From Opisthocomus hoazin (Eukaryota > Chordata > Aves > Opisthocomiformes > Opisthocomidae): a DNA stretch of 64,000 nt. A program made the position numbers and the translations under genes. Of this stretch, positions 3,142-62,860 are shown one piece after another. Within the stretch, counting starts at the first letter, position 1. Every line of letters begins with the position of its first letter. The notes below the pieces were generated by a model, which saw only the letters and a program-made list of their open reading frames with translations, had not been told where the DNA came from and searched no databases. The DNA lies in NCBI RefSeq assembly GCF_030867145.1, contig NC_134441.1, positions 2,504,001-2,568,000 of the forward strand, given 5' to 3'.

Positions 3142-6100
3142 TCAAACACCCTGGGCCTCCTCGGCGACGGGCGCCGAGAAGGGGAAGACCTCCCGCAGCA
3201 GGTTGGTGACGAAGCAGGGCATCTCCTTGCACCCCTCGTAGGTGCCCCTGGCCTGGCAGCGAAAGGCCACCTCCCAGTTAATGCGGGTCATCAGGCGGTT
3301 GAGGGCCAGGTGCCGTTCCTCTCCCTCCAGGAGCTTCAGCAGGGCCTGGAGGAACATGGAGCCGAAGACGTTGAGGAAGGCCACGTAGCCTGCGGAGCGC
3401 GGAGGAAGGAGAGCGACGTTGGCAGTGCCGTGGCCCTGTGACAGCGGCGTTTCCGAGAGGGAACGTTTCTGGCCGGCGTTGGTGTGCCGGGGGCTGTCCC
3501 TTACCTGGGCTGCAGGCGAACATCACGGCGCTCTGGGGAGGGATGGAGAGGTAGTCTGAGAAGCAGTCGGGCTCGGGCTCCTCGCCGTCGCACTCCACGA
3601 CCACCCCGCAGTCGAGCTCTCCCCCCCGGCAAGCCTGCGGGCGGAGGGGCTGGCGTGAGCTTCCCCCTGCTCTGCTCTCTCCTTTTTGCCCGTCTCCAGG
3701 GCAAGCCTAAAGCTCTTGGGGTCTCTGGGGGCTCCTTGTGGACCTGCACCCCCCCGCGAGCCAAGCTGCGACCCGTCCCATGGTGCAGAACCCCCCAGCT
3801 CCGAGCCCTGCAGCCCCACACGGTTCCTCTCCCATCTCCACCCCATTTTCAGCCGCCCTCCAGCATCCCCTTCGCTTCTCATCCGCTGCAGCTCGGCTTT
3901 GCCAAGCGTCTCCTGCCATGCACCTGGAGATGGGGCTCCCTCCTCTCTCCCCGACGCGTTTCTTGCGGTGCTGGGTCCCCTTCCCTTCGCATTTAGCCCT
4001 CCCCTCCGTGGTGGATGCCGGGAGCCTGCCCTTCTCCTCCATCCCAGGCACCCACCGCCCTGCAGTCCTTGCTCTACGAGGACAGCGTTCGGCAGCGTGA
4101 GTACCTGGACAGGCTGGAAAGCTGGGCAGAGAGGAACCTGATGAGGTTCAACAAAGCCAAATGCAGGGTCCTGCACCTGGGGAGGAACAACCTCATGCAC
4201 CAGTACAGGCTTGGGGTGGACCTGCTGGAGAGCAGCTCTGCGGAGAGGTACCTGGGTGTCCTGGTGGACGACAGGTTAACCATGAGCCAGCAGTGTGCCC
4301 TGGCTGCCAAGAAGGGCAACGGGATCCTGGGGTGCATCAAGAAGAGTGTGGCCAGCAGGACGAGGGAGGTTCTCCTCCCCCTCTGCTCTGCCCTGGGGAG
4401 GCCCCATCTGCAGTGCTGTGTCCAGTGCTGGGCTCCCCAGTTCAAGAAAGATGAGGAGCTACTGGAGAGAGTCCAGCGCAGGGCTACGAGGATGAGGAGG
4501 GGACTGGAGCATCTCTCCTACGAGGAGAGGCTGAGGGAGCTGGGCTTGTTCAGCCTGGAGAAGAGAAGGCTGCGAGGGGACCTTCGAAATGCCTCTAAAT
4601 ATCTGCAGGGTGGGGGTCAGGAGGACGGGGCCAGACTCTTTCCAGTGGTGCCCAGCGACAGGACAAGGGGCACCGGGCACAAACTGAAGCAGAGGAAGCT
4701 CCAGCTGAACCCGAGGAAGAACTTCTTCCCTCTGAGGGTGACGGAGCCCTGGCCCAGGCTGCCCAGGGAGGCTGTGGAGTCTCCTTCTCTGGAGATATTC
4801 CAGCCCCGCCTGGACGCGGTGCTGTGCCCCCTGCTCTGGGTGACCCTGCTTGGGCAGGGGGTTGGGCTGGGGGACCCCCAGAGGGCCCTGCCAACCCCTA
4901 CGATTCTGTGATTCTGTGATTCTGTACAAGCTTTGCCCGCGGATCGAGGTGCCCGGCCCAGTCCCCGCGTTCGCTGGCTTCGTCTGGGGGTGTCCCCTGC
5001 TGTCGCCGCTCCCCGCGCGGCGGCCAAGCCCTTTACCAGCAGGCAGCGGGATGCCGCGAGCGATTTTTACCCGCTTTCAGGCAAAAAAAAAAGATTTCTG
5101 TGGGGTTTGCAGAGCTCGCGCTGTCTGCTGGTGCCCGTCCAGCTGCTGAATTATCCGCTTGGCCAGTGGTCTAATCCTGCCTGCCCGCTCGCTGTCGACG
5201 CGCGCTGCCGGCGCTCGCTTCCTGCGAGAGCTCGTCCGCGCTCCCCTGCTTGGGCACCAGCGCTGGGTTTTGGTCCTGCTGCCTCGCCGGGCGTCTCCCA
5301 GCCCTGCCCCGGGAGCCTGCTGCGCCCCGATACCGCGGGGATGGCATCTGAAGAACCATCGAGTCGTGAAGCTTGGAGAAGACCTCCAAGATCGTCAAGT
5401 CCAACCGTCGACCCAGCACCACCGTGCCTGCTAAACCGTGTCCCCAGGCGCCACATCCACGCGTGTTTTGAACGCCTGAAGGCAGCATTTACCGACGGAT
5501 CCATATCCCGATGCCCCCCGGGAGGGATATTGGATCCTGGTGATGTCACCTATCGTGGCAAACAACCTGGTTCCATCCCAGAGGGTGCAAACTGCTCCTG
5601 TCTGGAGGCGCTGGGAAAAGACCGAGGCCGTTCCCTGAAGAAAGGACGCATGTACGGGCGAGGAGAGGCTGGGAGAGGAGTGTCTGCAGCGAGCGAAGAA
5701 ACCTCAAAATCGGTAAAAGCGTGAAAAGAGAGGGGTGGAGGGTTGTGGTGGGAAGCTGGGGAGCAGCGAGAGGATCGAGCTTTCGCGCGGATGTGGCAAA
5801 ATCCACAATTAAAACAGCCTTAACCCGGCAGCAGCCTGAAGCCTCGTGCTTGTGCCAGTCTAACTCATAAATTTAACGACATCTCATGCGTAAATTTAGT
5901 GACAGAGGGATCAGGCTGTCACCCAGCAGCTGCCTTACCTGGATAAAGAAGATTTTGGGTATTTTGGTGAGCGCCGGGCACTTCTCTGAGGATAAAATCT
6001 GGAAAATCCAGGTCAGCTTCACCGGCTCCGAGTCGCAACCGAGTACGACCCCCTCCTCTCCGTGGCTGGAGATGATGCTCACAAAGAACTCGCCGTGCTC

Positions 6101-6451: not shown

Positions 6452-8467
6452 GGTGGGGTGTCCCCTGGGCTGGGTGCGTGGCCTCCGGGCCGCCCGGGCA
6501 GCGTACCCGGCTCGGCTGGCTGGCACCGCGCCGGCGATGCCCCGTCGCCTGCCGAGCACCCGGGCGTGAGTCACGGGGTGCGGGAGGGCGACGGCTCGGC
6601 CCGGGTTCAGCGGGCAGCGAGGGCTGGGGCTTACGGGCTGTGTGGGGGGAGGAAGAGGAGGGGGAAAAATAAGGGATTTTTTTTTTTCCCTCCGAGACGC
6701 TGGGGGACGGAAATTCCTCCCCGCCTTCCTCGCCCTGTGCGAGTCGTCGTTTGCCCCAAAAGCCGGGCAATTCCCACTTCCCATTGCGGAATTTGGGGGG
6801 AAACCAGCCCCTTCCAGCCCCCCCTGTGAGCTCCTCACAGGGCGTGGGGCCGGTGATGCCCAACCTGCCCGCGCCCGGGGAAGCAGCCGCCGCTCGCCAG
6901 CGGGTTTTACCCGCGGGGGGGACCCCGTTTGTGCCACTCCCGCAGTGACCCCCCCCCCAAAAGCATCCTGCGCTGGCGCAGGGCGAGCCCCCAGCGACGC
7001 GCTCGCGAGGAGGGGTCTCAGCTGCACCCCTGCTTCCCTCCTTCCCTTGCCCAGCTTGCCGCCGCGGGGGGGTCGGATCGCAGCGATCTGGTGCCACCAG
7101 CCCCGCCGATCCCGCGTCACGCGGCGCCGATCACGAGATGCGTCGGATTATTTTATTGATTTCCGCTCTCGCGCGCTTCCCTTCCCCTGTGGGAGCGCCT
7201 GGGTCGCGTTCCCGAGCTCTCCCCGCAGGCAGAAACGCTAGGCTGCATTTTTTATTTTATTTTTTATTGCGAAAGGAAGGGGTGATGGCACCGTCGCGCG
7301 TCTCTGGGCAACGCGGGGTAGAGCAGCTGCTCTGAAATAGCTTCAAGCCAGGCTGGAATCAGTCCACCCGTGGTGTGTGAGAAGGTCCTGCTGACTCCAC
7401 CGCCCCGCTGAGCCGGGAGCCAGCTCCTTCGTTAAGGACCACGACCGTGAGCCTCTCTTCGTTAAAACGCAGCGATGGGGCTTAGCTTGGCGCCGTTTCC
7501 CTTTGCTCCGCTGCGGCCGGTGCCCATCCAACGGCTGGTGGGGCTTCACCAAACCTGCCCGACGCTGCCTGGACGAGCCCGGGCACAGCCCCGTCTCGGC
7601 AAGGTGCTGCTCCTCTGCCTCCGAGTCCCATGTGGAGCTTGAGGAGCCCAGCGAAGCTTTAGGAGCCCAGCGAAGCTTGAGGAGCCCAGCGAAGCTTGAA
7701 GAGCTCAATGAAGCTTGAAGAGCCCAGCAAAGCTTGAGAAGCGCAGTGAAGCTTGAGGAGCCCAGAGAAGCTTAAGGAGCCCAGCAAAGCTTGAGGAGCC
7801 CAGTGAAGCTTGAAGAGCTCAATGAAGCTTGAGGAGCCCAGCGAAGCTTGAAGAGCTCAATGAAGCTTGAGGAGCTCAGCGAAGCTTGAGGAGCCCAGTG
7901 AAGCTTGAGGAGCCCAACTCGGCACCAAAGCTGCCATCTGGAAGGGCGAAAGCATCCCTGGGGAGCTCAGTCCCCTCGACCCAGCGAGTGTTGGGTTGTG
8001 GGTGAAGGTCGATGCTCTGCTGATGGTCTGTGTGGCTCTTGGACTCTGGTGGGGATCACGCGACCATGGGTGTTGCTGGTAGAAGCTGTTGGGTGTTGCC
8101 TTCTGGTGCAGCCTGGTTTTTGAGCTCGCCTTGGCTTCTCGCCTGGCCACCGCTGCACGCAGCAGCTCTTGGAGCCCCTCTTCCCCGTGCTGGGAGAAGG
8201 GTTTTGCCCTCGAATCGGTGGCCGGGGATCGGTGCTGGCCTTTACTGGTTAGCGGAGGATGTGGTGGTGGAAGGAGGTGAGCTCTAGGTGGGTAAGGTCC
8301 ACGGCAAGCTGGCTGGAAACTGGGAACGGCGTCTTCCTGGGCTGTAACCCTTTGGCTTTGGGTTAGAGAAGGATGTGCTACGGTGATTGAGAGCTGAAAG
8401 TGAGGGACCGGGGGCGATCTGGTGGGCTGGGAGTGAAGGGAGGTCCTGGCCGGCGGGACGGCAGGTG
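6452..8467. other. Spacer between the caspase and RETSAT genes, both on the - strand
   Basis: No exon was recognised. On the - strand AATAAA occurs at 7152-7157 and three more times within 7251-7268, which are the best candidates for the RETSAT 3' end (about 1.2 kb after its stop). The part from 6452 to about 7120 is open in the caspase frame but looks like GC-rich non-coding DNA and probably holds that gene's promoter or 5' exon. A 19-bp minisatellite lies at 7636-7915. Confidence 0.5.
7636..7915. repeat. 19-bp minisatellite with an AAGCTT in nearly every unit
   Basis: About 14 tandem units of the form GAGGAGCCCAGCGAAGCTT with point variants (AGAGCTCAATGAAGCTT, AGTGAAGCTT). Three successive AAGCTT motifs begin at 7654, 7673 and 7692, giving a 19-bp period. 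It lies in the RETSAT 3' flank or 3' UTR. Confidence 0.9.
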
Positions 8468-16769: not shown

Positions 16770-17760
16770 GGGGAGCGGGCACGGGGAGGGGGAACTGGGA
16801 GGGGGCACTGGGAACGGGGAGCGGGCACTGGGACGGGGAACTGGGATGGGGCACCGGGAGGGGGGAGCGGGCACTGGGATGGGGCACTGGGAGGGGGCAC
16901 TGGGAACGGGGAGCGGGCACTGGGACGGGGAACTGGGATGGGGCACCGGGAGCGGAGAGCGGGCACTGGGAGGGGGAGCTGGGATGGGGCACGGGGAGCG
17001 GGCACTGGGAAGGGGGACCGGGAACTGGGAGCCGAGAGCCGGCACTGGGAACGGGGAGCGGGCACTGGGAGGGGGAACTGGGATGGGGCACGGGGAGCGG
17101 GCACTGGGAAGGGGGACCGGGAACTGGGAGCCGAGAGCCGGCACTGGGAACGGGGAGCGGGCACTGGGAGGGGGAACTGGGATGGGGAACTGGGATGGGG
17201 CACCGGGAGCGGGGAGCGGGCACTGGGAGGGGGGAGCGGGAACTGGGAGGGGGGAGCGGGAACTGGGAGCGGGGAGAGGTCACTGGGAGCGGGCACTGGG
17301 AGCGGAGAGCCAGCATTGGGAACGGGGAGCGGGGAGCGCGAACCGGGAGCAGGCACTGGGAGGGAGCACTGGGAGCGAGGAGCGGGAACTGGAAGAGGGC
17401 GCTGGGAGCTGAGACCTGGCACTGGGAGGGGACACTGGGAGCTGGCACCGGCAACTGGGAGCTGGGAGGGGGCACTGGGAGCTGGCACCGGGAACAGGGA
17501 GGTGGGAGGTGGCGCTGGGAGCTGGCACTAGGAGGGGGCACCGGGAACGGGGAGCGGGCACAGGGAGCTGGGAGATGGCACTGGGAGCCGGCACCGGGAG
17601 CTGGGAGCTAGGAGCTGGCACTGGGAGCTGGGACGGAGCACTGGGAGTTGATGGTGGGCGCTGGGAGCTGTTGTTGGGTACTGCGAGCCGGAACTGGGCA
17701 CTGGGAGCTGGCACTGGGCACTGGGAACTGGTACCAGGCACTGGGAGCTGGGAGCCGGTC
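16770..17760. repeat. Short-unit GGGAGC / GGGCACT minisatellite upstream of RETSAT
   Basis: About 1 kb of alternating 6-13 bp modules (GGGAACT, GGGAGCGGGGAGC, GGGCACT, GGGATGGGGCACC). A block around 16960-17060 recurs nearly unchanged at about 17080-17180. The right part shifts to CTGGGAGCTGGCA modules. It lies between the RETSAT ATG and the CpG-rich promoter and is probably RETSAT 5' leader, intron or flank. Confidence 0.88.
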
Positions 17761-18247: not shown

Positions 18248-21200
18248 ATGAGCGGAGGCGCCGGGGGCGAGGAGCGGCCCGAGGAGCGGCAGCGGTTCCC
18301 CCCGCCCGGCAAGTCCCTCCCCGTGCGTGTCAGGCCCGGGCCCTGCCCCTCGCTGTGCCCCCCCACCCCCACCCCGGGCCGACCCCCGGCCCCCCTCGGC
18401 CCAGGCAGCTCCGTCCCCCTGCCACCGCCTTACCTCGCCGTCTGCACCCCGCTAAAATGACCTTTGGGGGTACCAAAAAGCATCTTGGGGGTACCAGAAA
18501 TGATCTTCCCGGTAGCTGAGCTGATAACGGGGCAGAAACGCGCCCGGAGGGGTCCGAGCTGCGCTCGTGCCCTCCCCGCCGGCGGCTCGGGGGTCTGGGG
18601 TCGCCTCCCCGGGGAGCAGCGGGGTGGGGGGGGGTCCTGTCGCGGCAGGTGACGGCTGCGTCTCGCTCTGTCCCCCGCTCAGATCTCGGCGCTGAGGCAG
18701 AGCGGGCTCCTGCAGGCGCTCGCCCAGGGAGCAGGGCAGCCGGCGGGCACCGGTAAGCTGTGGTCTCGCTCCCTCTCGGTGTCCCGTGGCTCGGGGGGGG
18801 GGGGGGGAAACGCCTGGGGAGCTCGAGGGGAGCCCCAGGAACCCGGCGCTGCGCTGGCGGGTGAACCTCTCCGGCTTGGCAAAGCCCTCACCTGGTTCTG
18901 TCCCAGATTTGCTGGGCAGAAACCTCGCAGCATCTCGCAGGGGGGCTCTGGGGGAGGTTTTTCCCCAGAGGAGGGGAGCTCCTGCCCCGAGGTGCCCGGC
19001 GCAGCGCTGGGGGCAGGGAGCGGCTGCCCCCCCAGGTCTGCCAGCCGCCTCCAACCTCCGTCTGCCTTTCCTTCGGCAGAGATCGACGAGGAGCTGCAGC
19101 GAGCCCAGGAGGAATGGGAGGCTGTGGAAGAGATCCAGTCAGGTACGGCGGGGTCAGGGGAGTCGTTACGGAGCTGGAGGGAAAAGGCCTGGGGAGGGGA
19201 GGGGTCCTAGGACCCCGGGGGCGGGAGGGGGTGGGGGGTGTTATCTGGGGATGGGAGAGAGCTGGGGAAAGGGGTCTGGAGGGGGCAGGAGAGCCGCTGC
19301 CCTCCTCCAGCTCCCCGAATCTTCACCCTCCTGCCCCGCCGGAAGCCGGGAGCGAGCTCCCCGCGCCGCAACAGCCGCTGTGGTGTGAGGCGGGAGCTCG
19401 CTTCGACGCGGAGGGCAGGGCTGGCGCCGGGGTGGGGATTACCGCCGTCCCCTGCCTCTCCGCAGGGCTGGGGGGGGCCGGTGGCACAGCCCCCATCTCC
19501 TTCAACGAAGCGCTGCAGTACTTCCAGACGGCCGACCTCTCCGAGTGCCGGGTACGGGCAGGGCCCCGCGCTCTCGCCCTCTCTCTCGGGGGGTACCTTT
19601 AGTAAGTAGGAGCGGGGAGCGCGGCGGGAGCAGCGCGGAGCTCCCCTCTTCCCCTTCCCTCGGCTCCGCTCTCCGTGGGATCCCTCCCGGCTCGCCCGCG
19701 GGTTTCCCTCCCGCCCGACTCCCCGAGGGACCGGCCCCGATCGTTTCTTGGCGTGTTTTCTCCTTCCGCAGAAGAAGGTCGAGGCGACGGCGCGCGGGCA
19801 GGGCCTGGCCGCTCTGGTTCGCTCCCTCTTCGGCCCTCCCCGGCTCCGGGCGCAGCTGCGGGGAGAGCGGGAGCTGGCGCTGGCCATGGCGCAGTGTGAG
19901 TGTTCCCTCCGCCTGCGGCGGGAGCGACCGGGGGGCTCGGCGTGCCCCGAGGGACGCCTGCGCCGGCTCCTTTGCTCCCCAGCTGCGACGTGCTCACTTC
20001 TGGGGGGGAACGCTGGCTCTCTTGGCCCCTTGCCGTGCTCCGCGGCTCCTTCCCACTCCTCGTTCCGTGACTGAACGAGACGGGGATCCCTCCGGTCGCG
20101 TGGCTTGTGGCGGGGCACGCGTGCCGAGCACACGCAAACTCCACGCCTGGGGTCTGCGGCTGGGCCCGGTTCCCCAGGCGGTGTTTTGGGTGCGGAGGAG
20201 CGGTGTTTTGGGCACCAAGGGGGGGGGTTTAGGCACTGAGGAGCTGTTTGTAGGCGCCAAGGAACGGTTTTTGGGCACAGAGAGGCAGTTTTTAGGTGCC
20301 GAGGAGCAGTTTTTGGGCACCGAGGAGCTGTTTTTGGGCGCCAAGGGCGGGTGTTTTGGGCGCCAAGGCGTGGTTTTTGGGCACAGAGGAGCGGTTTTGG
20401 GCATGAAGGGGTGTTTTTGGGCACGGAGGGGCAGTTTTTGGGCACCAAGGAGCAGTTTTTGGGTGCCAAGGGGCGGTTTTTAGGTGCTGAGGAGCTGTTT
20501 TTATGTGCCAAGGAGCAATTTTTGGGCACGGAGGGGCGGTTTTTGGGTGCCAAGGGATGGTTTTTAGGTGCTGAGAAGTGGTTTTTGGGCACAGAGGAGC
20601 GGTTTTTGGGCACAGAGGAGCGGTTTTGGGCATGAAGGGGTGTTTTTGGGCATGGAGGGGCAGTTTTTGGGCACCAAGGAGCAGTTTTTGGGTGCCAAGG
20701 GGCAGTTTTTAGGTGCTGAGGAGCTGTTTTTATGTGCCAAGGAGCAATTTTTGGGCACGGAGGGGCGGTTTTTGGGTGCCAATGGATGGTTTTTAGGTGC
20801 TGAGAAGTGGTTTTTGGGCACAGAGGAGCGGTTTTTGGGCACAAAGGAGTGGTTATGGGCATGAAGGGGTGTTTTTGGGCACGGAGGGGCAGTTTTTGGG
20901 TGCCAAAGAGCAGTTTTTGGGCACAGAAGGGCAGTTTTTGGGTGCCAAGAGGCGGTTTTTAGGTGCTGAGGAGTGGTTTTTGGACACCAAGGAGCAATTT
21001 TTAGGTGCTGAGGAGTGGTTTTTGGGCACAGAGGGGCAGTTTTTAGACACTGAGGAGCTGTTTTTAAGTGCCAAGGAGCAGTTTTTGGGCACAGAGGGGC
21101 GGTTTTTGGGTGCCAAGGGGCATTTTTTGGGTGTCAAAGGGCGGTTTTTAGGCACTGAGGAGTGATTTTTGGGCACCAAGGTGCGGTTTTTGGGCGCTGA

Positions 21201-24200
21201 GGAGCGGTTTTTGGGCACCGAGGAGCAATTTTTAGGTGCTGAGGAGTGGTTTTTAGGCACAAAGGCATGGTTTTTGGGCACCAAGGGGCGGTTTATGGGC
21301 GCTGAGGAGCAGTTTTTGAGCATGGAGGGGCGGTTTTTGGGTGCCGAGGGGCGGTTTTTGGGCACCAAGTAGTGTTTTCTAGACTCCAAGGAGTGTTTTC
21401 TCTCCGCCAGGCGGTCTGGATGATAACGAGAGGGTGCACATGAGAATCCTGCAGACCATTTACAAGCAGCTGACCCGCTCCAGGCTGGGCTGCCCGCGCT
21501 ACGGGGCGCACTGGAAGAGCTCGGCTTTCAAGGTAGGGCGGTCGGAGAGACGCAAACCTCTGCTGGGAGAGAGCGCGCCGCTGCCCTTCCCCCGCTCCGG
21601 AGCCGGGATCCGGAGGCAGCGCGGGGGGTTTGCTGCTCATTCCCTCTCCCTGCACGCAGCCGCCGTCCCGGCTGCCGTTCCGTTGAGGTCGGAAAAGACC
21701 CGTCGGATCACCGTGTCCAGCTGGCGTGGGCGTCAGAAGTAGTTGGCGTAAGCCGTTACCCGGGTCATTAATGCTCATCATTAGCGAGCGATCTCTGCGG
21801 CTAATGAGCCGTCTCCGGAGAGCTGGTTTCCTAGCGAGGCGCGGGTCAGGGCTCTGTCGCTAAGGTCGTGTCGCGGGTCGCTCTCCGCCCGGCCTCGGTG
21901 AGGGGAACGGCGCGATGAAAGGCGTCACGCGCGGCCCGGCGGGAGCCTCCGGGCGAGGGAAATAGGCCGGGTTTGGGGGGAGCCGGGGAGCCTCGTCGGG
22001 AGGGAAAGGCTGGAAAGTTGGGCAGAGAGGAACCTGATGAGGTTCAACAAAGCCAAATGTAGGGTCCTGCACCTGGGGAGGAACAACCCCAGGCACCAGG
22101 ACAGGCTGGGGTGACCTGCTGGAGAGCAGCTCTGCGGAGAGGGACTGGGAGTGCTGGGGGACAACAGGGTGACCATGAGCCAGCAGCGTGCCCTGGGTGC
22201 CAAGAAGACTGATGGGATCCTGGGGTGCATCAAGAGGAGTGTGAGTGGGCAGCAGGGCGAGGGAGGTTCTCCTTCCCCTCTGCTCTGCCCTGGGGAGGCC
22301 CCATCTGCAGTGCTGGGTCCAGTGCTGGGCTCCCCAGGTCAAGAAAGATGAGGAGCTACTGGAGAGAGTCCAGCGCAGGGCTGCGAGGATGAGGAGGGAC
22401 TGGAGCATCTCTGCTACGAGGAGAGGCTGAGGGAGCTGGGCTTGTTCAGCCTGGAGAAGAGAAGGCTGAGAGGGGACCTTAGAAATGCCTCTAAATATCT
22501 GCAGGGTGGGGGTCAGGAGGACGGGGCCAGACTCTTTCCAGTGGTGCCCAGCGACAGGACAAGGGGCAGCGGGCACAAACTGGAGCAGAGGAAGCTCCAG
22601 CTGAACCCGAGGAAGAACTTCTTCCCTCTGAGGGTGACGGAGCCCTGGCCCAGGCTGCCCAGGGAGGCTGTGGAGTCTCCTTCTCTGGAGATATTCCAGC
22701 CCCGCCTGGCCGCGGTGCTGTGCCCCCTGCTCTGGGTGACCCTGCTTGGGCAGGGGGTTGGGCTGGGGACCCCCAGAGGGCCCTTCCAGCCCCTGCCATG
22801 CTGGGATGCTGGATTCTGCTTGCCAGCCAGATGTGCCCGGGGCTGGGGAGGGCTGGGAGCTGCCCGTTCCCAGGGTGGGCGAGCGGGGGCTCGTGGACAG
22901 AGGCTCCCGTGCCCTTCGGCTCCGGTTTGGGAAGCTCCCCAAGAGCTTGTGATTCCTGAAGGGAATCGCTGGGATTCCTCCGCTCTGGCAACACGGCAGC
23001 GGGGTAGGGACAGCACTGGGGAGGGGGGAGGTGACCAGAGAGTGACACCAGGCTGTGTGTGTCCCCTCCCCTCGCAGGTGCGGATCCCGGGACCGACCTC
23101 CGAGGGACGGGGATGCTGGGCTTGATGCAGATCCTCCACTTCGTCCTGGACGCTCGGACCCTGCCGCTGGCTCGGGAGATCTTCGCGCTGTCCCAGCACG
23201 AAACCCAGGCACGTCCGTCCCTCCTCCGCGCTCGCTCCCCGCAGCGGCGTCGGCCGATCGAATCGCTCGGGGCGAGGGAAGCGCAAAAACCTGCTCCTCG
23301 GAGTAAGGGCTCGATGATTTTTGCGCTGAGCAGCTGGGGAGGGGAGGAAGGCGCTCCCCAAAGAGCGGAGGAGCCCAACCGCGGCGTGGAGCCGAGCTCC
23401 AGCTCTTGGACTTAGTCCGGGACAGATTTTTAGCGTCCCGGTGGAGCTCAGAGATTCGCTCCCGGGATGCTGGCTCGGAGCTGGGCCTGGGCAGGTGAAA
23501 AGGGCCCGAGAAGCGGGCGCAGAGCGGCGCGGCGCGAAAACGGGAGCGAGCGCAGCCCGTCCCCCTAACCCTGGTGGGTTCATCCTGCGAGTGGCTGGGT
23601 TTAAGCCGGGATCCGAGCTCGGCTTGACCCGCAGCTCCCGTCTGAGCCTGGATCCGCAGCCGGGTCTGGGTCCGGGGCCGTGCGGACGCGGCGCGACGGG
23701 GCTGGAGGTGTCGCCCGCGCCCCCTCCGCGTCCCGGGAGAGGCTTTTCCCAGCGGGGCCGCCAAGAAACGCTCCTTCTCTTGCAGAATTTCCCCTTCTGC
23801 CTCATGTCGGTGAACATCACCCGCATCGTCCTGCGGGCCCTGCGGGACGAGCGTCTCTCCAGGCGAGCGCCGGGGGTCTCGGGCGGCGGCCGGGGGGTCC
23901 GCAGCCGGGCGCTGAGCCCCTCGCCGCCCGTTCGCAGGGAGTGCAACCGCAGGCAGCAGGTCATCGCCGTGCTGAACGACCTGTACGCCGCGGCCTTCCT
24001 GCAGCTCTACCGCGTCTGGAAACGGCAGCACAAGACCCTCGCCGACGCGGGCTGCCTCCTGAAGGGTACGTCTGCCCCGCGCCGCCCCCTCCTCACCCGC
24101 AGCCCGGCGGAGGACCCCGCCGCATTCGCGACCCCCAGAATCCCCACGCGTTCATCGCTCCGGCCCAGCGCCCGGGTTTCCCCCGGTGTTTAACGATCTG

Positions 24201-24790: not shown

Positions 24791-25044
24791 GGCGGGGGGA
24801 GACGCGTCGCGGGGACCCCCAGCTCGCCCTCGCCTCCGCGCGGGGGGCCGGGAAGGGCCCTGGGGGGTCGGGGCGGTGGGAGGGGGCCGCTGCCCTGAAG
24901 CGCAGTGAGGGGGGGTCTGCGAGCAGGCCGGGGGAGCCTGGGGAGCGTGGATTTTTACCCTAACCCCCCCAAAAAGGGCGGTTTGCCGCCTCGTCCCGGC
25001 GGCGGGGTCGGCGTTGCTCGGCGCCGCGGGGTCTTCACCAAGGG

Positions 25045-25400
25045 GGGGTTTGTAGGCGCCGAGGAGCGGTTTTTGGCATGGAGGGGTGGTTTTTGGGCAC
25101 AAGGAGCGGTTTTTGGGTGCCGAGGGGCAGTTTTTGGGTGCCAAGGGATGGTTTTTAGGTGCTGAGGAGCAGTTTTTGGGCACGGAGGGGTGGTTTTGGG
25201 CGCCAAGGAGCTGTTTTTGGGTGCCAAGGGGCAGTGTTTGGGTGCCAGGGGGCAGTGTTTGGGTGCCAAGGGGTGGTTTTTAGGTGCTGAGGGGCAGTTT
25301 TTGGGCACAGGGGAGTGGTTTTGGGCACCGAGGGGCAGTTTTTAGGCACTGAGGAGCTGTTTTTGGGTGCCAAGGGGTGGTTTTTGGGCGCCGAGGAGCG
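25045..25400. repeat. Second array of the 21-bp ELMOD3 satellite
   Basis: About 17 units of the same GAGCAGTTTTTGGGCACCGAG family as the intron 5 array, here 250 bp after the ELMOD3 stop codon and so within the likely 3' UTR. Unit variants (GGTGCCAAGGGATGG, TTTAGGTGCTGAGGAGC) match individual units of the intron array, so the two arrays share ancestry. Confidence 0.92.
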
Positions 25401-25822
25401 GCTGGGGGCACCTTGACCCCGCGGTTTGGGGACCCCCCTGAACTCCCCGGGGTGTTGCTGCACCCATCGGGTGTTAGAAGGAGGGAGAAATGCTTTTCTG
25501 GGTGTAATAGAGGATTTTTTTTGGGGGTGTGGAAGAAAGGGGGGGACCCCCGTGCCCTCCTCCTGCAGCCCTCCGTGCCTCAGTTTCCCCTCTCAGGCCA
25601 GGCGGGGCCGAGCCGGGAGCAGCGATGGGAAACGCTCCCAAAGCACCTTCAGCCCTCGAAAGAGGGGAAAAACGCCCAAAAATGTGGAGGGGGGCGGAAA
25701 GGCGAGGAGCTGGGGGGCTCGGAGGGCCCCCACAGCTGCCGGGGGGGGGTTTCTCCCCCCCAAGGGGCGATCGCCTTCCTGGTGGGGGTGGGGAAGGCTT
25801 TCCCCGGCTGGAAAAAACACCC

Positions 25823-29030: not shown

Positions 29031-29415
29031 GGCTGTCGCGCCCCACGCTGCTGTGTCGTGACCCACACTGCTGTGTCGTGACCCACACCGCTGTGCTGTG
29101 ACCCACACCGCTGTGTCGTGACCCACACCCCTGTGTCGTGACCCACACCGCTGTGTCGTGACCCACACCGCTGTGCTGTGACCCACGCTGCTGTGTCGCG
29201 ACCCACACCCCTGTGTCGTGACCCACACCGCTGTGCTGTGACCCACGCCGCTGTGCATGACTCACGCCGGCACGCAGTGACCCTCACCAGGCTATCGCAA
29301 CCCACACCATGGCATCGTGACCCACGCTGGTCCGTCGCGACCCACACCAGTGCGTTGTGACTCATGACAGCGCGTGGCAAACCTCACCGGCGCGCGGTGC
29401 CCCACGCCATAACGC
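29031..29415. repeat. 20-bp tandem array downstream of ADRA2B
   Basis: About 19 units of ACCCACACCGCTGTGTCGTG. The first 11-12 units (to about 29258) are in perfect 20-bp register; the rest are more diverged (GGCATCGTG, TCCGTCGCG variants) but mostly keep the length. No link to a gene is seen. Confidence 0.9.
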
Positions 29416-29826: not shown

Positions 29827-30026
29827 NNNNNNNNNNNNNNNNNNNNNNNNNNNNNNNNNNNNNNNNNNNNNNNNNNNNNNNNNNNNNNNNNNNNNNNNNN
29901 NNNNNNNNNNNNNNNNNNNNNNNNNNNNNNNNNNNNNNNNNNNNNNNNNNNNNNNNNNNNNNNNNNNNNNNNNNNNNNNNNNNNNNNNNNNNNNNNNNNN
30001 NNNNNNNNNNNNNNNNNNNNNNNNNN
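29827..30026. other. Assembly gap of 200 N
   Basis: Exactly 200 undetermined bases, probably a fixed-size placeholder. Flanks are a CpG-rich stretch on the left (29440-29820, no recognised gene) and C/G homopolymer-rich repeats on the right. Any 5' exon of GPAT2 or a small gene could be missing here. Confidence 0.99.
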
Positions 30027-40991: not shown

Positions 40992-41063
40992 GACCCCCCC
41001 CCCCCTCGTCTGCGGTGGGGGGGCTTTGGGGGGGCTTTGGGGCGCGCCGCGGCGTCTCGGGGT

Positions 41064-44000
41064 TCAGACCACCTTGTTGCAGATGGTGCCCAGCTCCTCG
41101 ATCTCGCACTGCACCTCGTCCCCTCGCTGCCGGCGGCACGGGGACGGTGACGGCGTGAGGACCCCCACGGGGGTCCTTCATCTCCCCCCTGCCCCCCCCC
41201 CGCCATTCCCCTCACCTTGAGAAACACGGGGGGCTTCTGAAAGACCCCCACGCCGGGAGGGGTTCCCGTCAGCAAGATGTCCCCGGGGACCAGCGTGACG
41301 AAGCTGGGGAGGGGGACGCGGGGGTGTCAGCTGTGGCCCCCCACCCCCCCCACTCACCGAGACCCCCCGGGACCCCCCCCCGTCACCCACCGGGAGACCC
41401 AGGCGACGAGCTGGGGCAGGGGGAAGAGGAGCTGGCGGGTGCTGCTGTCCTGCATCAGCCGCCCGTTGACGCTGCAGCGGATCCGCAGGTTGTGGACGTC
41501 TGCGGGGACGGAGGGGACGCGTGGCAGCGGGGAGGGGGACGCGGGGACACCCCCCCCGACCCCGTCCACAGCCCTGTTGTCACCTGCCACCGCCTCCTTG
41601 GTGACCAGGGCCGGGCCCAGGGGACAGAAGGTGTCGAAGGTTTTGCCCAGCAGCCACTGCCGCCCGTTGCGGCCCTGCCAGTCGCGGGCGCTGACGTCGT
41701 TGGCCACCGTGAAGCCCGCGACGTGGTCCAGGGCCACCGGCTCCTGGGGGGGCACGGGGACCCCGTGAACCGGGGGGGGGGACACAGAGACCCCAGGGCC
41801 ACTGACTCCGTGGGGGGGGATGAGGGGGACCCGCTGAACCGGGGTGGGGAGGATGCAGAGACCCCAGTGTCAGTGGCTCCTTGGGGGGGGGCACAAGGGG
41901 GACCCACTGAACCGGGGTGGGGGGACACCGAGACCCCAGTGCCACTGACTCCTTGGGGGGGGCACAAGGGGGATCCGCTGAACCAGGGTGGGGGGGACAC
42001 AGAGACCCCAGTGCCCCTGACTCCTTCAGGGGGGACAAGGGGGACCTGCTGAACCAGGGTGGGGGGATGCAGAGACCCCAGTGCTGCCAAATCCTTGGGG
42101 GGGGGGGACAGTGGGGACCTGGTGAACTGGGGTGGGGGGACACTGAGACCCCAGTGCCACTGACTCCTTAGATGGGGAGGGACACACAAGGGGGACCTGC
42201 TGAACTGGGGGGACACACACACACATAGAGACCCCAGGGCCACCGACTCCTTGGGGGGGGGGGACAAGGGGGACCCACTGAACCAGGGTGGGGGGACTCA
42301 GAGACCCCAGGGCCACCAACTCCTTCAGGGGGGACAACGGGGACCTGCTGAACTGGGATGGGGGGACACCGAGACCCCCATGCCACTGACTCCTTGGGGG
42401 GGGGCAAGGGGGACGCAGAAACCCCACTGCCGCCGAATACTTGGGGGGGAGAACAACGGGGACCTGCTGAACTGAGGGGGGGGGGGACACAGAGACCCCA
42501 GTGCCACTGACTCCTTGGGGGGGGACACAAGGGGGACCCACTGAACCAGGGTGGGGGGGATGCAGAGACCCCAGTGCTGCTGAATACTTGGGTGGGGGGG
42601 GGACACAACAGGGACCCGCTGAACCGAGGTGGGGGGGGACACAGAGACCCCAGGGCCACCGACTCCGTGGGGGGGGATGAGGGGGACCCGCTGAACCAGG
42701 GTGGGGAGGATGCAGAGACCCCAGTGTCAGTGGCTCCTTGGGGGGGGGCAAGGGGGACCCAATGAACTGGGGTGGGGGGGACACCGAGACCCCAGTGCCA
42801 CTGACTCCTTTAGGGGGGACAAGGGGGACCTGCTGAACCAGGGTGGGGGGATGCAGAGACCCCAGTGCTGCCAAATCCTTGGGGGGGGGGGACAGTGGGG
42901 ACCTGGTGAACTGGGGTGGGGGGACACTGAGACCCCAGTGCCACTGACTCCTTAGATGGGGAGGGACACACAAGGGGGACCTGCTGAACTGGGGGGGACA
43001 CACACACATAGAGACCCCAGGGCCACCAACTCCTTGGCGGGGGGACAAGGGGGACCCACTGAACCAGGGTGGGGGGACTCAGAGACCCCAGGGCCACCGA
43101 CTCCTTCAGGGGGGACAACGGGGACCTGCTGAACTGGGATGGGGGGGACACCGAGACCCCCATGCCACTGACTCCTTGGGGGGGGGCAAGGGGGACGCAG
43201 AAACCCCACTGCCGCCGAATACTTGGGGGGGAGGACAACGGGGACCTGCTGAACTGGGGGGGGGGGACACAGAGACCCCAGTGCCACTGACTCCTTGGGG
43301 GGGGACACAAGGGGGACCCACTGAACCAGGCTAGGGGGGATGCAGAGACCCCAGTGCTGCTGAATACTTGGGTGGGGGGGGACACAACAGGGACCCGCTG
43401 AACCGAGGTGGGGGGGGACACAGAGACCCCAGTGCCACTGACTCCTTGGGGGGAGCACAAGGGGGATCCGATGAACCAGGGTGGGGGGGGATGCAGAGAC
43501 CCCAGTGCCGCTGACTCCTTGGGGAGGGCACAAGGGGGACCCACTGAACGGGGGTGGGGGGACACCGAGACCCCAGTGTCACTGGCTCCTTGGGGGGGGG
43601 ACAAGGGGGACCCACTGAACCGGGGTGGGGGGGACACAGAGACCCCAGTGCCGCCGACTCCTTGGAGGGGGGGGCACAAGGGGGACCCACTGAATCGGGG
43701 TGGGGGGGACATAGAGACCCCAGGGCCACTGACTCCTTGGGGAAGGGGGAGAAGGGGGACCCGCTGACCGGGGGTGGGGGGGACACCGAGACCCCAGCCT
43801 CACGGAGGGGGGGACAGCAGGGGGGTTACCTCGATGTGCCGCCCCTTCTTCCCGATGATGGCGGCCAGCTCCACCTCCCAGTCCACCTCCTGCGGGGAGA
43901 CAAGCGGGGTGCTGGGGGGGGCTGGGAGGGCCCGCACCCCTTTTTTTTGGGGGGGGGGGGGGTTACTCACGCTGCTCTCCTCGGGGTGCACGATGTCGTC

Positions 44001-45769
44001 GAAGGGCCCGGTGACGGCGCTGGGGAACTTGCTGAAGATGATGGGCTCGGCGGGGACGCGGGCGCCCTGCTCCCGGCAGTGGTCGCGGTAGTTGAGCCCC
44101 ACGCAGATCACCTTCTGGGGGTCCCCGACGGGCGCCAGCAGCCGCACCGTCCCCCGCGGCACCCGGTGCCGGCCCGAGTCCAGCGCCCTGCGGGGTCGGG
44201 GGCCAGCGTCACCGCCGCGCTGGGACCCCCCACCCACCCGGCTTCGCTCAGTGGTACCTGCCTGCATGTGGTGGCACCCACCTTCGCGCGGTGGCACCCA
44301 CCTTCACGTGGTGGCACCCACCTGCACGCGGTGGCACCCACCTTCACGCGGTGGCACCCACCTGCACGCGGTGGCACCCACCTTCGCGTGGCGGCACCCA
44401 CCTTCGTGTGGTGGCACCCACCTTCACGCGGCGGCACCCACCTGCACATGGTGGCACCCACCTTCACGTGGTGGCACCCACCTTCACGCGGTGGCACCCA
44501 CCTTCACGCGGTGGCACCCACCTGCACGCGGTGGCACCCACCTTGGCGTGGTGGCACCCACCTGCATGTGGTGGCACCCACCTTCACGCGGCGGCACCCA
44601 CCTGCACATGGTGGCACCCACCTTCACGCGGTGGCACCCACCTTGGCGTGGTGGCACCCACCTTCACACGGTGGCACCCACCTTCAGGCAGTGGCACCCC
44701 CCTGCACGCGGCGGCACCAACCTTCATGTGGTGGCACCCACCTGCACGCGGTGGCACCCACCTTCACGCGGTGGCACCCACCTGCACGCGGTGGCACCCA
44801 CCTGCACATGGTGGCACCCACCTGCACGCGGTGGCACCCACCTGCACGCGGTGGCACCCACCTGCACATGGTGGCACCCCCCTGCACGCGGCGGCACCAA
44901 CCTTCATGTGGCGGCACCCACCTTGGCGTGGTGGCACCCACCTTCGCGTGGCGGCACCCACCTTCGTGTGGTGGCACCCACCTGCACACGGTGGCACCCA
45001 CCTGCACATGGTGGCACCCACCTTTGCGCGGTGGCACCCACCTTCGCGGGGTGGCACCCACCTGTACGTGGTGGCACCCACCTTTGCTCAGTGGCACCCA
45101 CCTTCACACGGTGGCACCCACCTTCACGCGGTGGCACCCACCTTCACTCAGTGGCACCCACCTGCACATGGTGGCACCCACCTTCACGCGGTGGCACCCA
45201 CCTTCACTCAGTGGCACCCACCTGCACATGGTGGCACCCACCTTCACGCGATGGCACCCACCTGCACGTGGTGGCACCCACCTGCACACGGTGGCACCCA
45301 CCTTCGCGTGGTGGCACCCACCTTCACGCGGTGGCACCCACCTTCGCGTGGTGGCACCCACCTTGGCGTGGTGGCACCCACCTTCGCGTGGTGGCACCCA
45401 CCTTCACATGGTGGCACCCACCTTCGCGGGGTGGCACCCACCTGCACGTGGTGGCACCCACCTTCGCGGGGTGGCACCCACCTTCACGCGGTGGCACCCA
45501 CCTGCACGCGGTGGCACCCACCTTGGCGTGGTGGCACCCACCTTCACGCGGTGGCACCCACCTTGGCGTGGTGGCACCCACCTTTGCGCGGCGGCCAGGC
45601 CGCTGGGGCCGCTCTCCAGGAAGGCTCGCATGGAGCGGGGCAGCCCCGGCTCGGCCGCGGTCAGGTCCACCACGTCCCCCCCGATCCCTTCTTCCAGCCC
45701 CAGGCGGGGCTCGGGACCCCCGGCCCCCCGGAACCGCACCAGCCGCATGGCCCCCGCCAGCCGCTGCAT
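41064..45769 (-). CDS. FAHD2A: FAHD2A, fumarylacetoacetate hydrolase domain protein 2
   Basis: A FAH-family metal-dependent hydrolase/decarboxylase-like enzyme, usually mitochondrial. Exons in gene order: 45769-45582, 44187-43971, 43889-43830, 41743-41584, 41499-41391, 41303-41216, 41126-41064. Phases agree and give 294 aa; human is 314 with a longer leader. Diagnostic strings are [96 protein letters not shown] and [14 protein letters not shown]. Metal-ligand acidic residues of the FAH fold sit in EVDWEVE and NDVSARD. Two ATGs are possible, 45769 (MQRLAGAM) and 45748 (MRLVRF); an acceptor CGGCAG lies just upstream at about 45779, so the first exon is non-coding and a donor CAG|GTGGCA at about 47242 is a candidate. 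Intron 1 after the first coding exon is a pure 20-bp array and intron 3 a 2-kb minisatellite. Confidence 0.95.
41760..43800. repeat. About 73-bp minisatellite with an internal 0.8-kb duplication, FAHD2A intron 3
   Basis: Units combine GACCCACTGAACCGGGGTGG, GGGGACACAGAGACCCCAG and TGCCACTGACTCCTTGG with G runs; successive CAGAGACCCC motifs are about 70-75 bp apart. A larger block is duplicated. The rare motifs CTCCTTAGATGGGGAGGGAC (near 42165 and 42950), CCGCCGAATACTTGGG (near 42431 and 43213) and CTGCTGAATACTTGGGTGG (near 42578 and 43358) recur in the same order, offset about 780-785 bp. Confidence 0.92.
44241..45580. repeat. 67-unit 20-bp array with no indels, made of 5' splice-site copies, FAHD2A intron 1
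   Basis: Consensus CCTTCACGCGGTGGCACCCA on the + strand. Every unit from 44241 to 45580 is exactly 20 bp (1340 bp, 67 units); only substitutions are seen, mostly in positions 4-10 (TTCACGC, TGCACAT, TTGGCGT, TTCGCGG, TTCACTC). In gene sense each unit reads GTGAAGGTGGGTGCCACC, so it has AAG or CAG followed by GTGGGT, a good 5' splice site. The true donor of the first coding exon (CAAAG|GTGGGT at 45582/45581) is in the same register, and the last exon bases resemble the unit. The array fills the intron to within about 50 bp of the acceptor at 44188. Confidence 0.97.
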
Positions 45770-45779
45770 CCGCGTCTGC

Positions 45780-47140
45780 CGGGGCACCGGAGCGTCGGGA
45801 TCCAGCGCCCAGCGGATCCCGGCACCGGCCGTGGCGCCCACCCTGGGTTTTGCCCCCTGTGGATGGGTCCCTCCCGTGCAGGGGGGATCCCTGGATCCAG
45901 GGGGGGGGCAGATGCCAGCGTGGGGCAGACTGGGGACAGCGGATCCCACCCAGCGGGGCAGATCCCAGCCCCGATCCCTGGGATGGCAGCAGATCCCTCC
46001 CGCGGCAGGGAGCGGATCCCGGCACAGGACGGATCTGGGGGGGATGGGATTCCCTGCCCCCCCCCGGGCAGACCACCTGATCCCACACAGCGCAGGTCCT
46101 GGGGGGTCCCCACAGCCCCGATCCCGGGGATCCCCCCGATCCCGCACAACCCCAGTCCCGGGGGCTCCCCCCGATCCCGCGCAGTGGGGATCCCTGGGAG
46201 ATTCCCTCTCGTGGGCCCGCATAGCCCTGATCCCGGGGATCCCCCCCCCCCAGCTCCCACACAGTCTTGAGCCCCAGGATCCCCCCAGTCCCACAGGATC
46301 CCCCCCCCCAGATCCTGCACTGCTCCGATCCCACAGGAACCCCACCCCCCCGCCCCAACCCTGCTCAGCCCAATGCCAGGGATCCCCCGATCCCAAAGGA
46401 TCCCCCCGATCCCTCACAGCCCCAGACCCAGGAGATCCCCCCCCAATCCCTCACAGCCCTGATCCCAGGGGATCCCCCTGATCCCAGGGGACCCCCTGAT
46501 CCCGCACAGCCCCAGCCCTGGGGGATCCCCCCCTGACCCTGCTCAGCCCTGATCCCAAGGGACTCCCCGATCCCACACAGCCCCGATCCCAGGGACCCTC
46601 AGATCCCAGGGCCCCCCCCGATCCTGCACAGCCCCAATCCCAGGGGACCCCCCGATCCCTCACAGCCCTGATCCTAGGGGATTCACCCCGATCCCAAGAG
46701 ACCCCCTGTTCCTGCACAGCCCCGATCCCAGGGGACCCCCTGATCCCAAGAGATTCCCCCAATCCCATACAGCCACGATCCCAGGGACCCTCAAATCCCA
46801 GGGGACCCCCTCTGATCCCTCACAGCCCCGATCCCAGGGGATCCCCCCGATGCCAAGAGACCCCCCCCCAATCCCGCACAGCCCTGATCCCAGGGGATCC
46901 CCCATATCCCAGGGGGCTCCCCCGATCCCAGGGGACCCCCACATCCCAGGGGATCCCCCCGATCCCACACAGCCCTGATCCCAGGGGATCCCCCCGATCC
47001 CAGAGATCCCCCTGATCCCAGGGGACGCTCAGATCCCAGGGGACCCCCCCTGATCCCTCACAGCCCCGATCCCAGGGACCCCCCCGACCCCAGGGGATTC
47101 CCCCCAATCCCTCACAGCCCCAGACCCGGGGAATCCCCCC
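45780..47140. repeat. GATCCC-rich degenerate minisatellite upstream of FAHD2A
   Basis: From about 46080 to 47130 the sequence is built of CAGCCCCGATCCCAGGGGAT, CCCCCCGATCCC and CACACAGCCC modules, about 25-60 bp apart. It probably lies in the intron between the non-coding first exon and the first coding exon of FAHD2A. The part from 45780 to 46080 carries more irregular GATCCC repeats. Confidence 0.85.
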
Positions 47141-47229
47141 CCGCCCGATCCCGCGGTGCCCGGACCCGGCGGTGGGGGGGCAGAGGGGATTCCCCGATCC
47201 GGGTGGGGGGGGAGGGGGGCACAGGGGAT

Positions 47230-47460
47230 CCCCGGTGCCACCTGCGTCACGTGCCGCGTCACTCCCCTCCCGGCACGCGCCGACCCCGCGGCCACCAGCC
47301 CGAAGGTCTCCGCGCCGAGTCCCCGCCCCCCCCTCGGGCCGACCAATGCGAGCTCGGAGGGGGCGGGGCCTCCGCGGCGGCGCAGCCAATGACAGCCGGC
47401 AGCGCTCGGCCAGCCGGAGGGGCGGGGCGGCAGGCGGCGTTGCTAGGATACGGGGAGCGG
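47230..47460. promoter_or_regulatory. CpG-island promoter for FAHD2A, possibly bidirectional
   Basis: A CpG-rich stretch with CCAAT at 47343-47347 and 47386-47390, GC boxes (GGGGCGGGGC near 47360 and 47412) and a TCACGTG E-box near 47247. A donor-like CAG|GTGGCA on the - strand at about 47242 would end a non-coding FAHD2A exon. Both CCAAT boxes point along the + strand, so a + transcript is also possible. Confidence 0.55.
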
Positions 47461-47465
47461 CCGCC

Positions 47466-47712
47466 ATGACAGCGCCGCGCCGCCATGACAGGGCCGCCAT
47501 GACGGCGCCGAGGCCGGGAGCGGCGGAGCCCCGGGCCGGGAGCGAGCCGGGCCGAGGCGGCTGCTTCTCACCTGGATTGCACGGAAAGGCGCGAGTGGGT
47601 GAGCGAGCGACGGGCGGCGGCGGCGGGGTGGGCCGGGCCGGGGCGGGGGGCCGGCCGGGGCCTGCCTGAGGTGCGGCCTGGCCTCCGCGGCCCGGTCGTG
47701 AGGAGAAATAAA
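47466..47712 (+). other. Possible short divergent transcript (no recognised protein)
   Basis: The frame from ATG 47466 runs to a stop at 47667-47669 with 67 Arg/Gly/Ala-rich residues resembling no family I know, and AATAAA follows at 47707-47712. It could be a promoter-associated non-coding RNA or nothing at all. It is reported only because promoter, ATG, stop and poly(A) signal come in order. Confidence 0.15.
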
Positions 47713-61140: not shown

Positions 61141-61865
61141 TGTGATGCGTGTGTGCAGGTGTGTGTAAGGCGTGTGTAAGGTGTAAGGCGTGTGTAAGGC
61201 GTAAGATGTGTGTAAGGCATAAGGCGTGTGTAAGGCATGTGTAAGGCATGTGTAAGGCGTGTGTAAGGCATAAGGCGTGTATAAGGCGTGTGTAAGGCGT
61301 AAGACATGTGTAAGGCATGTGTAAGGCGTGTGTAAGGCATAAGGCGTGTATAAGGCGTGTGTAAGGCGTAAGACATGTGTAAGACATGTGTAAGGCGTGT
61401 GTAAGGCGCAAGGCGTGTGTAAGGCATAAGACGTAAGGCGTGTGTAAGGCATGTAAGGCGTGTGTAAGGCATGTGTAAGGCATGTGTAAGGCATGTGTAA
61501 GGCGTAAGGCGTGTGTAAGGCGTGTATAAGGCATGTGTAAGGCATAAGGCATGTGTAAGGCGTGTGTAAGGCATGTGTAAGGCATGTGTAAGGCGTGTGT
61601 AAGGCGTGTGTAAGGCGTAAGGCGTGTGTAAGGCGTGTGTAAGGCGTGTGTAAGGCGCGTGTAAGGTGTGTGTAAGGCATGTGTAAGGCGTGTGTAAGGC
61701 ATGTGTAAGGCATAAGGCATGTGTAAGGCGTGTGTAAGGCATGTGTAAGGCGTGTGTAAGGCGTGTGTAAGGCGTAAGGCATGTATAAGGCATGTGTAAG
61801 GCGTAAGGCATGTGTAAGGCGTGTGTAAGGCGCGTGTAAGGCGTGTGTAAGGCATGTGTAAGGCG
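61140..61865. repeat. GTGTAAGGCGT array (10-bp unit with 7-bp variants)
   Basis: About 70 units of GTGTAAGGC followed by GT or AT. The main unit is 10 bp (GTGTAAGGCA / GTGTAAGGCG), with interspersed 6-7 bp units (AAGGCGT, AAGGCAT). Larger blocks recur, for example GTGTAAGGCATAAGGCGTGT at about 61260 and 61325. It yields false long frames rich in Thr, Pro, Tyr and His on the - strand. Confidence 0.93.
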
Positions 61866-62860
61866 TGCACACAGCTGCGTGGCGTGTTCGCAGCCGTCAG
61901 GCCCCGTGCGCAGGCGCGATGCGTGTGTGTGGGCACATGTAAGGCGTGTTCGCCGCCGCACGGCCGTGTGCGCAGGCGCGATGCGTGTGCGTGTGCAAGG
62001 CGTGTTCGCCGCCGTGCGCGTGGCGTGTGGCCCGGCAGTCCCGTGCCGCCCCGCCGGCGGCGAAGCCTCCCGCTCCCGGCCGGCGTGCGGTGACGCAGGC
62101 GCTGCAGCCCCGCGCCGCATTCAGCGCTGCGGCTCCCTGCGGGCGCGGGCTCATCTGAGGACACGAGCGGGAGCCGCCTGCGCGTGAGCCGCCGCCGCGG
62201 AACCGCAGCCGCGGCCTGGCCTGACCTCGTCCCGGGGGGCCGAGTCCCCTCCGAGCGGGGTCCCGCGCCCCTCGGTCCCCCAACACGGAGCAAGCAGCCG
62301 CTCCAGCCCCCCCCCAGAAGGAAGCGGGGGGCTGTGGGGGGGGCACTGGGGACAGCTGGGGGGGCCCCGTGCGCAGCCGGCGCCTGGGGCAGCTGCTGCG
62401 TGCGGGGCAGGTGCAGGCAGCCCCCCACTCCCTTGGGGGGGGGACCGGGAGCAGCTGTGGGGCCTGGGGGGCTCAGGGACCCCCCCCCACTCTGAGGCAG
62501 CTGCGGTGAGGTGCCCCCCACCCCCTGCACACTGCTGGAGGGAAACGGAGGCGAGGAAACGCCCGGGGTGGGACAGCGACCGAGCGAAGGCGCCTTCCTC
62601 GCCTTCCTCCTCCTCCTCCTCCTCGCGGTGCAGCGGTCCCCTACCTGCTCCGTCCCGTCCCAGGGGCTCCGCAGCTCTGTCCTGGGGGGGGGGGTGTCCC
62701 GCAGCCGCCCCCAGCTCAGCTAAAACCCGAGGCTGCTCTTCCGCCGTTCACCTGGGCACGCAAAACCTCGTTTGGTTTGACGCTGGAAGGGGCTCGTCAG
62801 GAAAAATTAAAATTGAAAGAGTTTTTATTTCCTACAACATGCTCCCTAGCGCACCCCCCC
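61866..62860. other. GC-rich stretch without a recognised gene
   Basis: It begins with degenerate GTGTGTGCAAGGCGTGTTCG and GCGCAGGCGCGATGCGTGTG modules to about 62010, then CpG-rich DNA. No supported exon was found on either strand. Confidence 0.5.

Follow-up and report, generated by a model that had tools for sequence, protein, structure and literature searches.

The window, meaning the whole stretch of 64,000 nt of Opisthocomus hoazin DNA that was analyzed, had a GC content of 66.7%. It contained a FAHD2 gene on the minus strand, whose seven coding exons ran from 45748 to 41064. Introns 1–6 measured 1394, 81, 2086, 84, 87, and 89 nt, respectively. The joined exons encoded a protein of 287 aa, which matched the Pfam family PF01557 at residues 81–287. 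Among the best 120 of 7986 homologues, the closest were bird proteins named oxaloacetate tautomerase FAHD2/Fahd2a, with a top identity of 89%, and the contigs of many bird FAHD2 proteins in this set were about 4.7–8.1 Mb in size. The first coding exon ended in CGCAAAG, in phase 2, and an alternative in-frame start was possible a few codons upstream of the ATG used here (Table 1).

Table 1. Positions of the FAHD2 exons, introns and repeat units in the window.
Feature	Position	Strand	Basis
First coding exon (167 nt, counted from the chosen ATG)	45582..45748	-	Conceptual translation and PF01557 match of the joined exons
Unit 0, putative seed: last 14 exon nt plus donor GTGGGT	45576..45595	-	Register match from -14 to -1, lost at -15
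Intron 1, 1394 nt	44188..45581	-	Gene model
Intron 1 array: 67 indel-free units of 20 nt, of 27 types	44256..45595	-	TRF and unit reading
Unit 34, donor changed to GTTGGT	44896..44901	-	Unit reading
Unit 35, donor lost (GGGGGT)	44876..44881	-	Unit reading
Unit 43, donor changed to GTTGGT, as in unit 34	44716..44721	-	Unit reading
Unit 44, donor lost (GGGGGT), as in unit 35	44696..44701	-	Unit reading
Unit 66, donor lost (GCAGGT)	44256..44261	-	Unit reading
Degraded partial unit (20 nt), then the last 48 nt of the intron, outside the repeat, with acceptor CCCCGCAG	44188..44255	-	Unit reading, register
Coding exon 2	43971..44187	-	Gene model
Intron 3 array: unit of about 71–73 nt; exon 4 acceptor region present in 26 copies	41756..43797	-	TRF; anchor count
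Coding exon 4, putative origin of the repeats in intron 3, which copy its acceptor and first 16 nt	41584..41743	-	Gene model, copy matches

Thirteen of the best 120 of 7986 homologues (within P0054 to P0109), all of them partial bird proteins, began within exon 2, a few residues from its start, as if the annotation had dropped exon 1 beyond intron 1; perhaps this intron is troublesome in other birds too. In the X2 isoform of Rhea pennata (P0083), the first 22 residues past the exon 1/exon 2 junction were missing, as though splicing had gone to a different acceptor within exon 2. Bubo scandiacus had two FAHD2 proteins (P0005 and P0046) from contigs of different sizes, one with an exon 1 that looked frame-shifted.

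Tandem repeats were frequent, and 57 merged TRF tracts covered 18630 of the 64000 bases of the window. Five introns bearing arrays were tested for the adjoining exon edge. It was present in two, both in FAHD2, and was not found in the other three, which were two GPAT2-like arrays and one RETSAT-like array (gene names that we take from a reading of the translations). Exon edges were therefore not the seed of every array in the window. Two sites about 4 kb apart, 20178–21366 and 25036–25401, carried a nearly identical 21-bp unit (GCGGTTTTTGGGCACCGAGGA), and so the unit may have moved between them. An 11-bp unit (GCGTGTGTAAG) was repeated about 70 times at 61147–61867, and a 20-bp array of 11 copies without indels was located at 29034–29255; on reading by eye, no adjoining exon was noticed for either. 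The window also contained an assembly gap of 200 N (29827–30026) and an open reading frame on the plus strand (3997–4908), whose translation reads like a CR1-type LINE reverse transcriptase.

The array in intron 1 was reported by TRF at 44270–45595, with a period of 20, 66.3 copies and 0% indels. In the phase of the putative seed, which reaches from exon position -14 to intron position +6, it extended from 45595 down to 44256. Read in gene sense, 62 of the 67 units carried AAG or CAG directly followed by GTGGGT, and the donor at 45581/45582 was the first in the series. The original prediction had described 67 in-register copies of 20 nt free of indels, nearly all of them with AAG or CAG before GTGGGT and with the real donor at their head, and each of these points held on unit reading. 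It had given the span as 44241–45581, which missed the 14 exonic bases of unit 0. The intron minus 66 units (1394 - 1320) would measure 74 nt, which is near the lengths of the short introns 2, 4, 5, and 6 (81, 84, 87, and 89 nt).

A comparison of register linked this unit to the exon end. At lags that were multiples of 20, a mean of 10.2 of the last 14 exon bases matched intron 1, against 1.5–6.1 in the other 19 phases, and the match ceased at exon position -15. The unit thus combines 14 exon nucleotides with GTGGGT, which argues that the boundary itself was amplified, as had been proposed beforehand. As a shuffle control, the exon end was locally aligned to 200 dinucleotide shuffles of the intron, with 36 tests in the first run. 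In that run the real intron 1 score was equaled by 1, 3, and 17 of the 200 shuffles for 14, 20, and 30 nt of exon, respectively; the weak result at 30 nt is expected if just 14 nt are shared. In the second run, none of 200 reached the real score at 20 nt. The donor side of intron 2, which is free of arrays, also scored (2/200 at 20 nt and 8/200 at 30 nt, among the 36 tests), so the shuffle control was not sharp alone and the weight of the argument lies with the register test.

The exon 1/exon 2 junction was gap-free in 102 of the best 120 of 7986 homologues, while four had insertions and 14 were partial or deleted there. This indicated that the exon end is older than the array, which would derive from the exon and not the reverse. 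At -5 to -3 the exon carried CAA, a Gln codon; of the 66 other units, 57 had CGA, TGA, or TGC there. The residue at this position in the best 120 of 7986 homologues was Arg in 55, Gln in 32, and Lys in 15. The units may fit an Arg founder codon that decayed at CpG, which is less certain than the corresponding case in intron 3.

Intron 3 displayed the mirror case, in which the acceptor and the first 16 nt of exon 4 were copied. A copy comprised a C-rich tract, AAG or ACG, and then a 16-mer like GAGTCAGTGGCACTGG. The downstream anchor GGGGTCTC occurred 27 times in this intron, 26 times after an exon-4-like 16-mer and once at a site that was not a copy. In the 26 copies, the 16-mer resembling the exon 4 start (GAGCCGGTGGCCCTGG) was preceded by AAG (24 copies) or ACG (two copies). 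Over the 27 anchors, the 16-mer agreed with exon 4 in 12.4 of its 16 bases on average (best 15), compared with 4.7 over all intron 3 positions. When the first 20 nt of exon 4 were aligned to intron 3, the score was reached by 0 of 200 shuffles in each of two runs. The second codon of the copies, corresponding to residue 150, encoded Ser in 19 (TCA in 15, TCG in four), Leu in four, and Pro in three, and exon 4 of the window had CCG (Pro). Across the best 120 of 7986 homologues, Ser predominated at residue 150 (70), with Ala (18), Thr (17), Glu (10), and Pro (two) also present. The simplest reading is that the intron 3 copies probably retain an older codon of exon 4.

The 67 units of intron 1 contained 128 deviations from their consensus, including 75 transitions that made or broke a CpG and 24 A/C differences at -3. 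Six deviations fell at donor positions +1 to +6, and none (0/201) at -14 to -12. As the latter positions were as invariant as the donor, the constancy is not specific to the donor and no selection on donors is needed. Neighboring units were barely more alike than distant ones, with mean differences of 2.85 at lag 1, about 2.5 at lags 2–3, and mostly 2.7–3.0 beyond. The longest recurring block of unit types was three, which was within the range of 2–5 in 2000 shuffles; relative to shuffled unit order, block expansions beyond chance were not found within the array.

The perfect length of the array had been regarded as unusual in itself. That view was not supported, since TRF also reported 0% indels at 7636–7916 (14.8 copies) and 29034–29255 (11.1 copies), both shorter than the intron 1 array, and for the same reason selection on register or length is unnecessary. 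A simple homopolymer rule for indels left some cases unexplained: the array at 61147–61867, whose unit had a longest run of 2, had 15% indels, and a 13-bp array at 16771–17628, with runs of 3, had 11%. The constant block GGTGGGTGCCACC was able to form a 5-bp hairpin, and the units could pair with one another. The folding z-scores were -0.74, 0.78, 0.30, -1.98, and -1.34 for five RNA stretches and 0.20, 0.11, -0.54, and -1.59 for four DNA stretches; special RNA or DNA folding was rejected as an explanation, as the energies were not exceptional. No Rfam match at gathering scores was found at 41000–47500.

Donor strength was scored as the duplex energy of positions -3 to +8 with the 5′ end of U1. 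The real donor and 40 other units reached -11.0 kcal/mol, 21 units reached -12.5 kcal/mol, and five ranged from -7.6 to -8.7 kcal/mol. For the 5394 other GT sites of the window, none reached -12.5 kcal/mol and 0.26% reached -11.0 kcal/mol. In total, 62 donors, the real one included, paired with U1 equally to or better than the real donor. Donor scoring had been named in the original prediction, together with far lower scores of internal units as the result that would speak against it; by U1 duplex energy the internal units were not weaker, and that drop was absent. By this pairing measure the real donor was unmarked by sequence, and it would therefore have to be singled out by its position.

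The frame beyond the exon had been expected to stay open for several units, and this was the case for 175 nt, or about eight units. A donor lying three or six units in would yield an intact longer protein, and these were the sole in-frame choices to do so. Donors at n = 1, 4, and 7 would give a frameshift with a stop in exon 2, and those at n = 2, 5, and 8 a frameshift in which no stop occurs up to the end of the coding sequence. For all donors at n = 9 and beyond, a stop would be encountered within the array, 175 nt into the intron. The earlier expectation that an addition of 20n nt keeps the frame at multiples of three was correct, but a full-length protein was limited to n = 3 and n = 6. 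Four homologues had insertions at the junction, the largest in Bambusicola P0087 (27 residues) and small ones in P0046, P0047, and P0098, and the array-frame motifs searched for were absent from them.

Here, we proposed that the intron 1 array is an exon-stuttering minisatellite, in which the border of exon 1 with intron 1 was amplified to 67 whole units, and gave this a probability of about 0.85. A 20-bp segment over the boundary, made of 14 nt of exon and 6 nt of intron, would have been duplicated in tandem, and growth by whole units to 67 copies would have lengthened the intron from about 74 to 1394 nt. Intron 3 may have been enlarged likewise from the acceptor edge of exon 4. The expansion would stem from mutation, with slippage or unequal exchange acting in the GC-rich DNA of birds, and would be tolerated because it leaves the coding sequence and the two outer splice sites undamaged. 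U1 would bind many units, and the first, exon-defined donor, perhaps with its nearest neighbors, would mostly be used. Slips to downstream donors would mostly produce messages with a frameshift or a stop, and many of these would be degraded.

The state of the donors also invites the explanation that the array is functional, with selection acting on its copy number to adjust how much of the FAHD2 mRNA is productive, to supply isoforms longer by 20 or 40 residues, or to give U1-dependent protection from premature polyadenylation. Donors are intact in 62 of the 67 units and 21 of them out-pair the real one with U1, and the units at n = 3 and n = 6 would give full-length proteins where the others lead to a frameshift or stop. 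We considered this explanation distinctly unlikely, because the donor positions collected six deviations against 0/201 at -14 to -12, because 75 of the 128 deviations were CpG transitions, and because the pair of variants that change the donor was found twice side by side (units 34/35 and 43/44), as if copied. Moreover, three array motifs in the read-through frame were absent in the best 120 of 7986 homologues, which come from birds that may lack the array. A length-dependent splicing rheostat was likewise judged distinctly unlikely. In it, the 61 downstream donors with equal or stronger U1 pairing would compete for one acceptor, and an unstable copy number would set the FAHD2 mRNA of each individual; since 20 nt is not a multiple of three, nearly all slips would be non-productive and copy number would set the mRNA level. 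If that were true, the acceptor-side array of intron 3 would be a second dial in the same gene. Copy-number regulation of FAHD2 is possible, as pure conjecture.

Two further explanations concern the origin of the repeats, and we regarded both as highly improbable. An unrelated intronic minisatellite could resemble the exon end by chance or have invaded the exon, and the window is indeed rich in arrays (57 merged TRF tracts over 18630 of 64000 bases), with three of the five tested array-bearing introns showing no exon edge. Against this stand the in-register match over 14 nt with its sharp end at -15, the gap-free exon end in 102 of the best 120 of 7986 homologues, and the second exon-edge array within FAHD2, in intron 3. 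An assembly artefact might have inflated or collapsed the copy number: such introns are hard to sequence according to the available portions of PMC12954441 and PMC6792250, and a 200-N gap was present elsewhere in the window (29827–30026). An artefact should, however, repeat longer blocks, whereas the array had 27 unit types and a longest recurring block of three, as in shuffled order. The exact count of 67 units may be off.

The intron 1 array offers a clean natural experiment on how a single donor is picked by the spliceosome when dozens that are as good or better lie 20 nt apart. Exon-edge arrays could also be molecular fossils that help to date an expansion, since a Ser codon frequent among the homologues is kept in most intron 3 copies although the exon itself has changed. 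Competing pairs of donors have been studied, for example in DOK7 (available text of PMC5585400), and donor choice was also treated in the accessible part of PMC8724738. In leptin, TNF-alpha, and other GC-rich bird genes, introns consist largely of tandem repeats (PMC6792250, available text), and FAHD2 is alike in being a GC-rich bird gene with such an intron. The same portion of that paper stresses motifs able to form G-quadruplexes and does not mention an origin from exon edges. A literature search for donor-boundary VNTRs yielded no paper, and neither did a search for chromosome 22 together with RETSAT.

The minisatellite of the human IFI6 (6-16) gene has a unit of 12 bp, so that switching the unit keeps the frame; unlike this, the FAHD2 unit has 20 bp, and a move to another unit mostly disrupts the frame. 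The multiple splice donors of this minisatellite were reportedly described by Turri et al. in 1995. Two downstream repeat units of IFI6 serve as donors and three mRNA species result (PMC4526556, available text). The FAHD2 array is similar in that it spans the exon end and its units carry splice donors, here predicted from sequence.

The closest likeness was found with exon stuttering in chicken, in which fragments of exon edges with a donor or acceptor are copied through introns (Hron et al., 2026; PMC12954441). According to the available text of that study, it affects 115 genes and 236 introns, 190 of them on dot chromosomes, with high length variation among individuals. Chicken dot chromosomes measure 2.5–6.8 Mb there, a size that overlaps with other microchromosomes. 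FAHD2 is not named in the main text of PMC12954441. As in the cases described in the accessible part, tandems of the exon edge and splice site fill the adjoining FAHD2 introns while the coding exon is intact in a GC-rich bird gene, and FAHD2 shows both donor-side and acceptor-side cases. In intron 1, exon positions -14 to -1 are repeated in 66 further units, and the source reaches over the border and 6 nt into the intron.

In the available text, the chicken screen used an exon hit of at least 20 nt and a BLASTn bit score of at least 42.1, and its exon hits spanned 20–187 bp (median 36 bp) in 1–44 copies (median 4) that formed imperfect tandems (PMC12954441). The exon parts in FAHD2, 14 nt in intron 1 and 16 nt in intron 3, are below the 20-nt minimum given there, and intron 1 has 67 copies in a strict 20-nt register compared with the range of 1–44 copies in imperfect tandems. 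We took the criteria of that screen as detection limits and not as a definition. A stuttering seed as short as 14 exonic nucleotides is suggested, and as this is under the published limit, exon stuttering may be undercounted. Judged by its sequence, the FAHD2 array fits the definition of exon stuttering, outside the limits of the screen and above its copy range, and it is a new and extreme case of this already described phenomenon.
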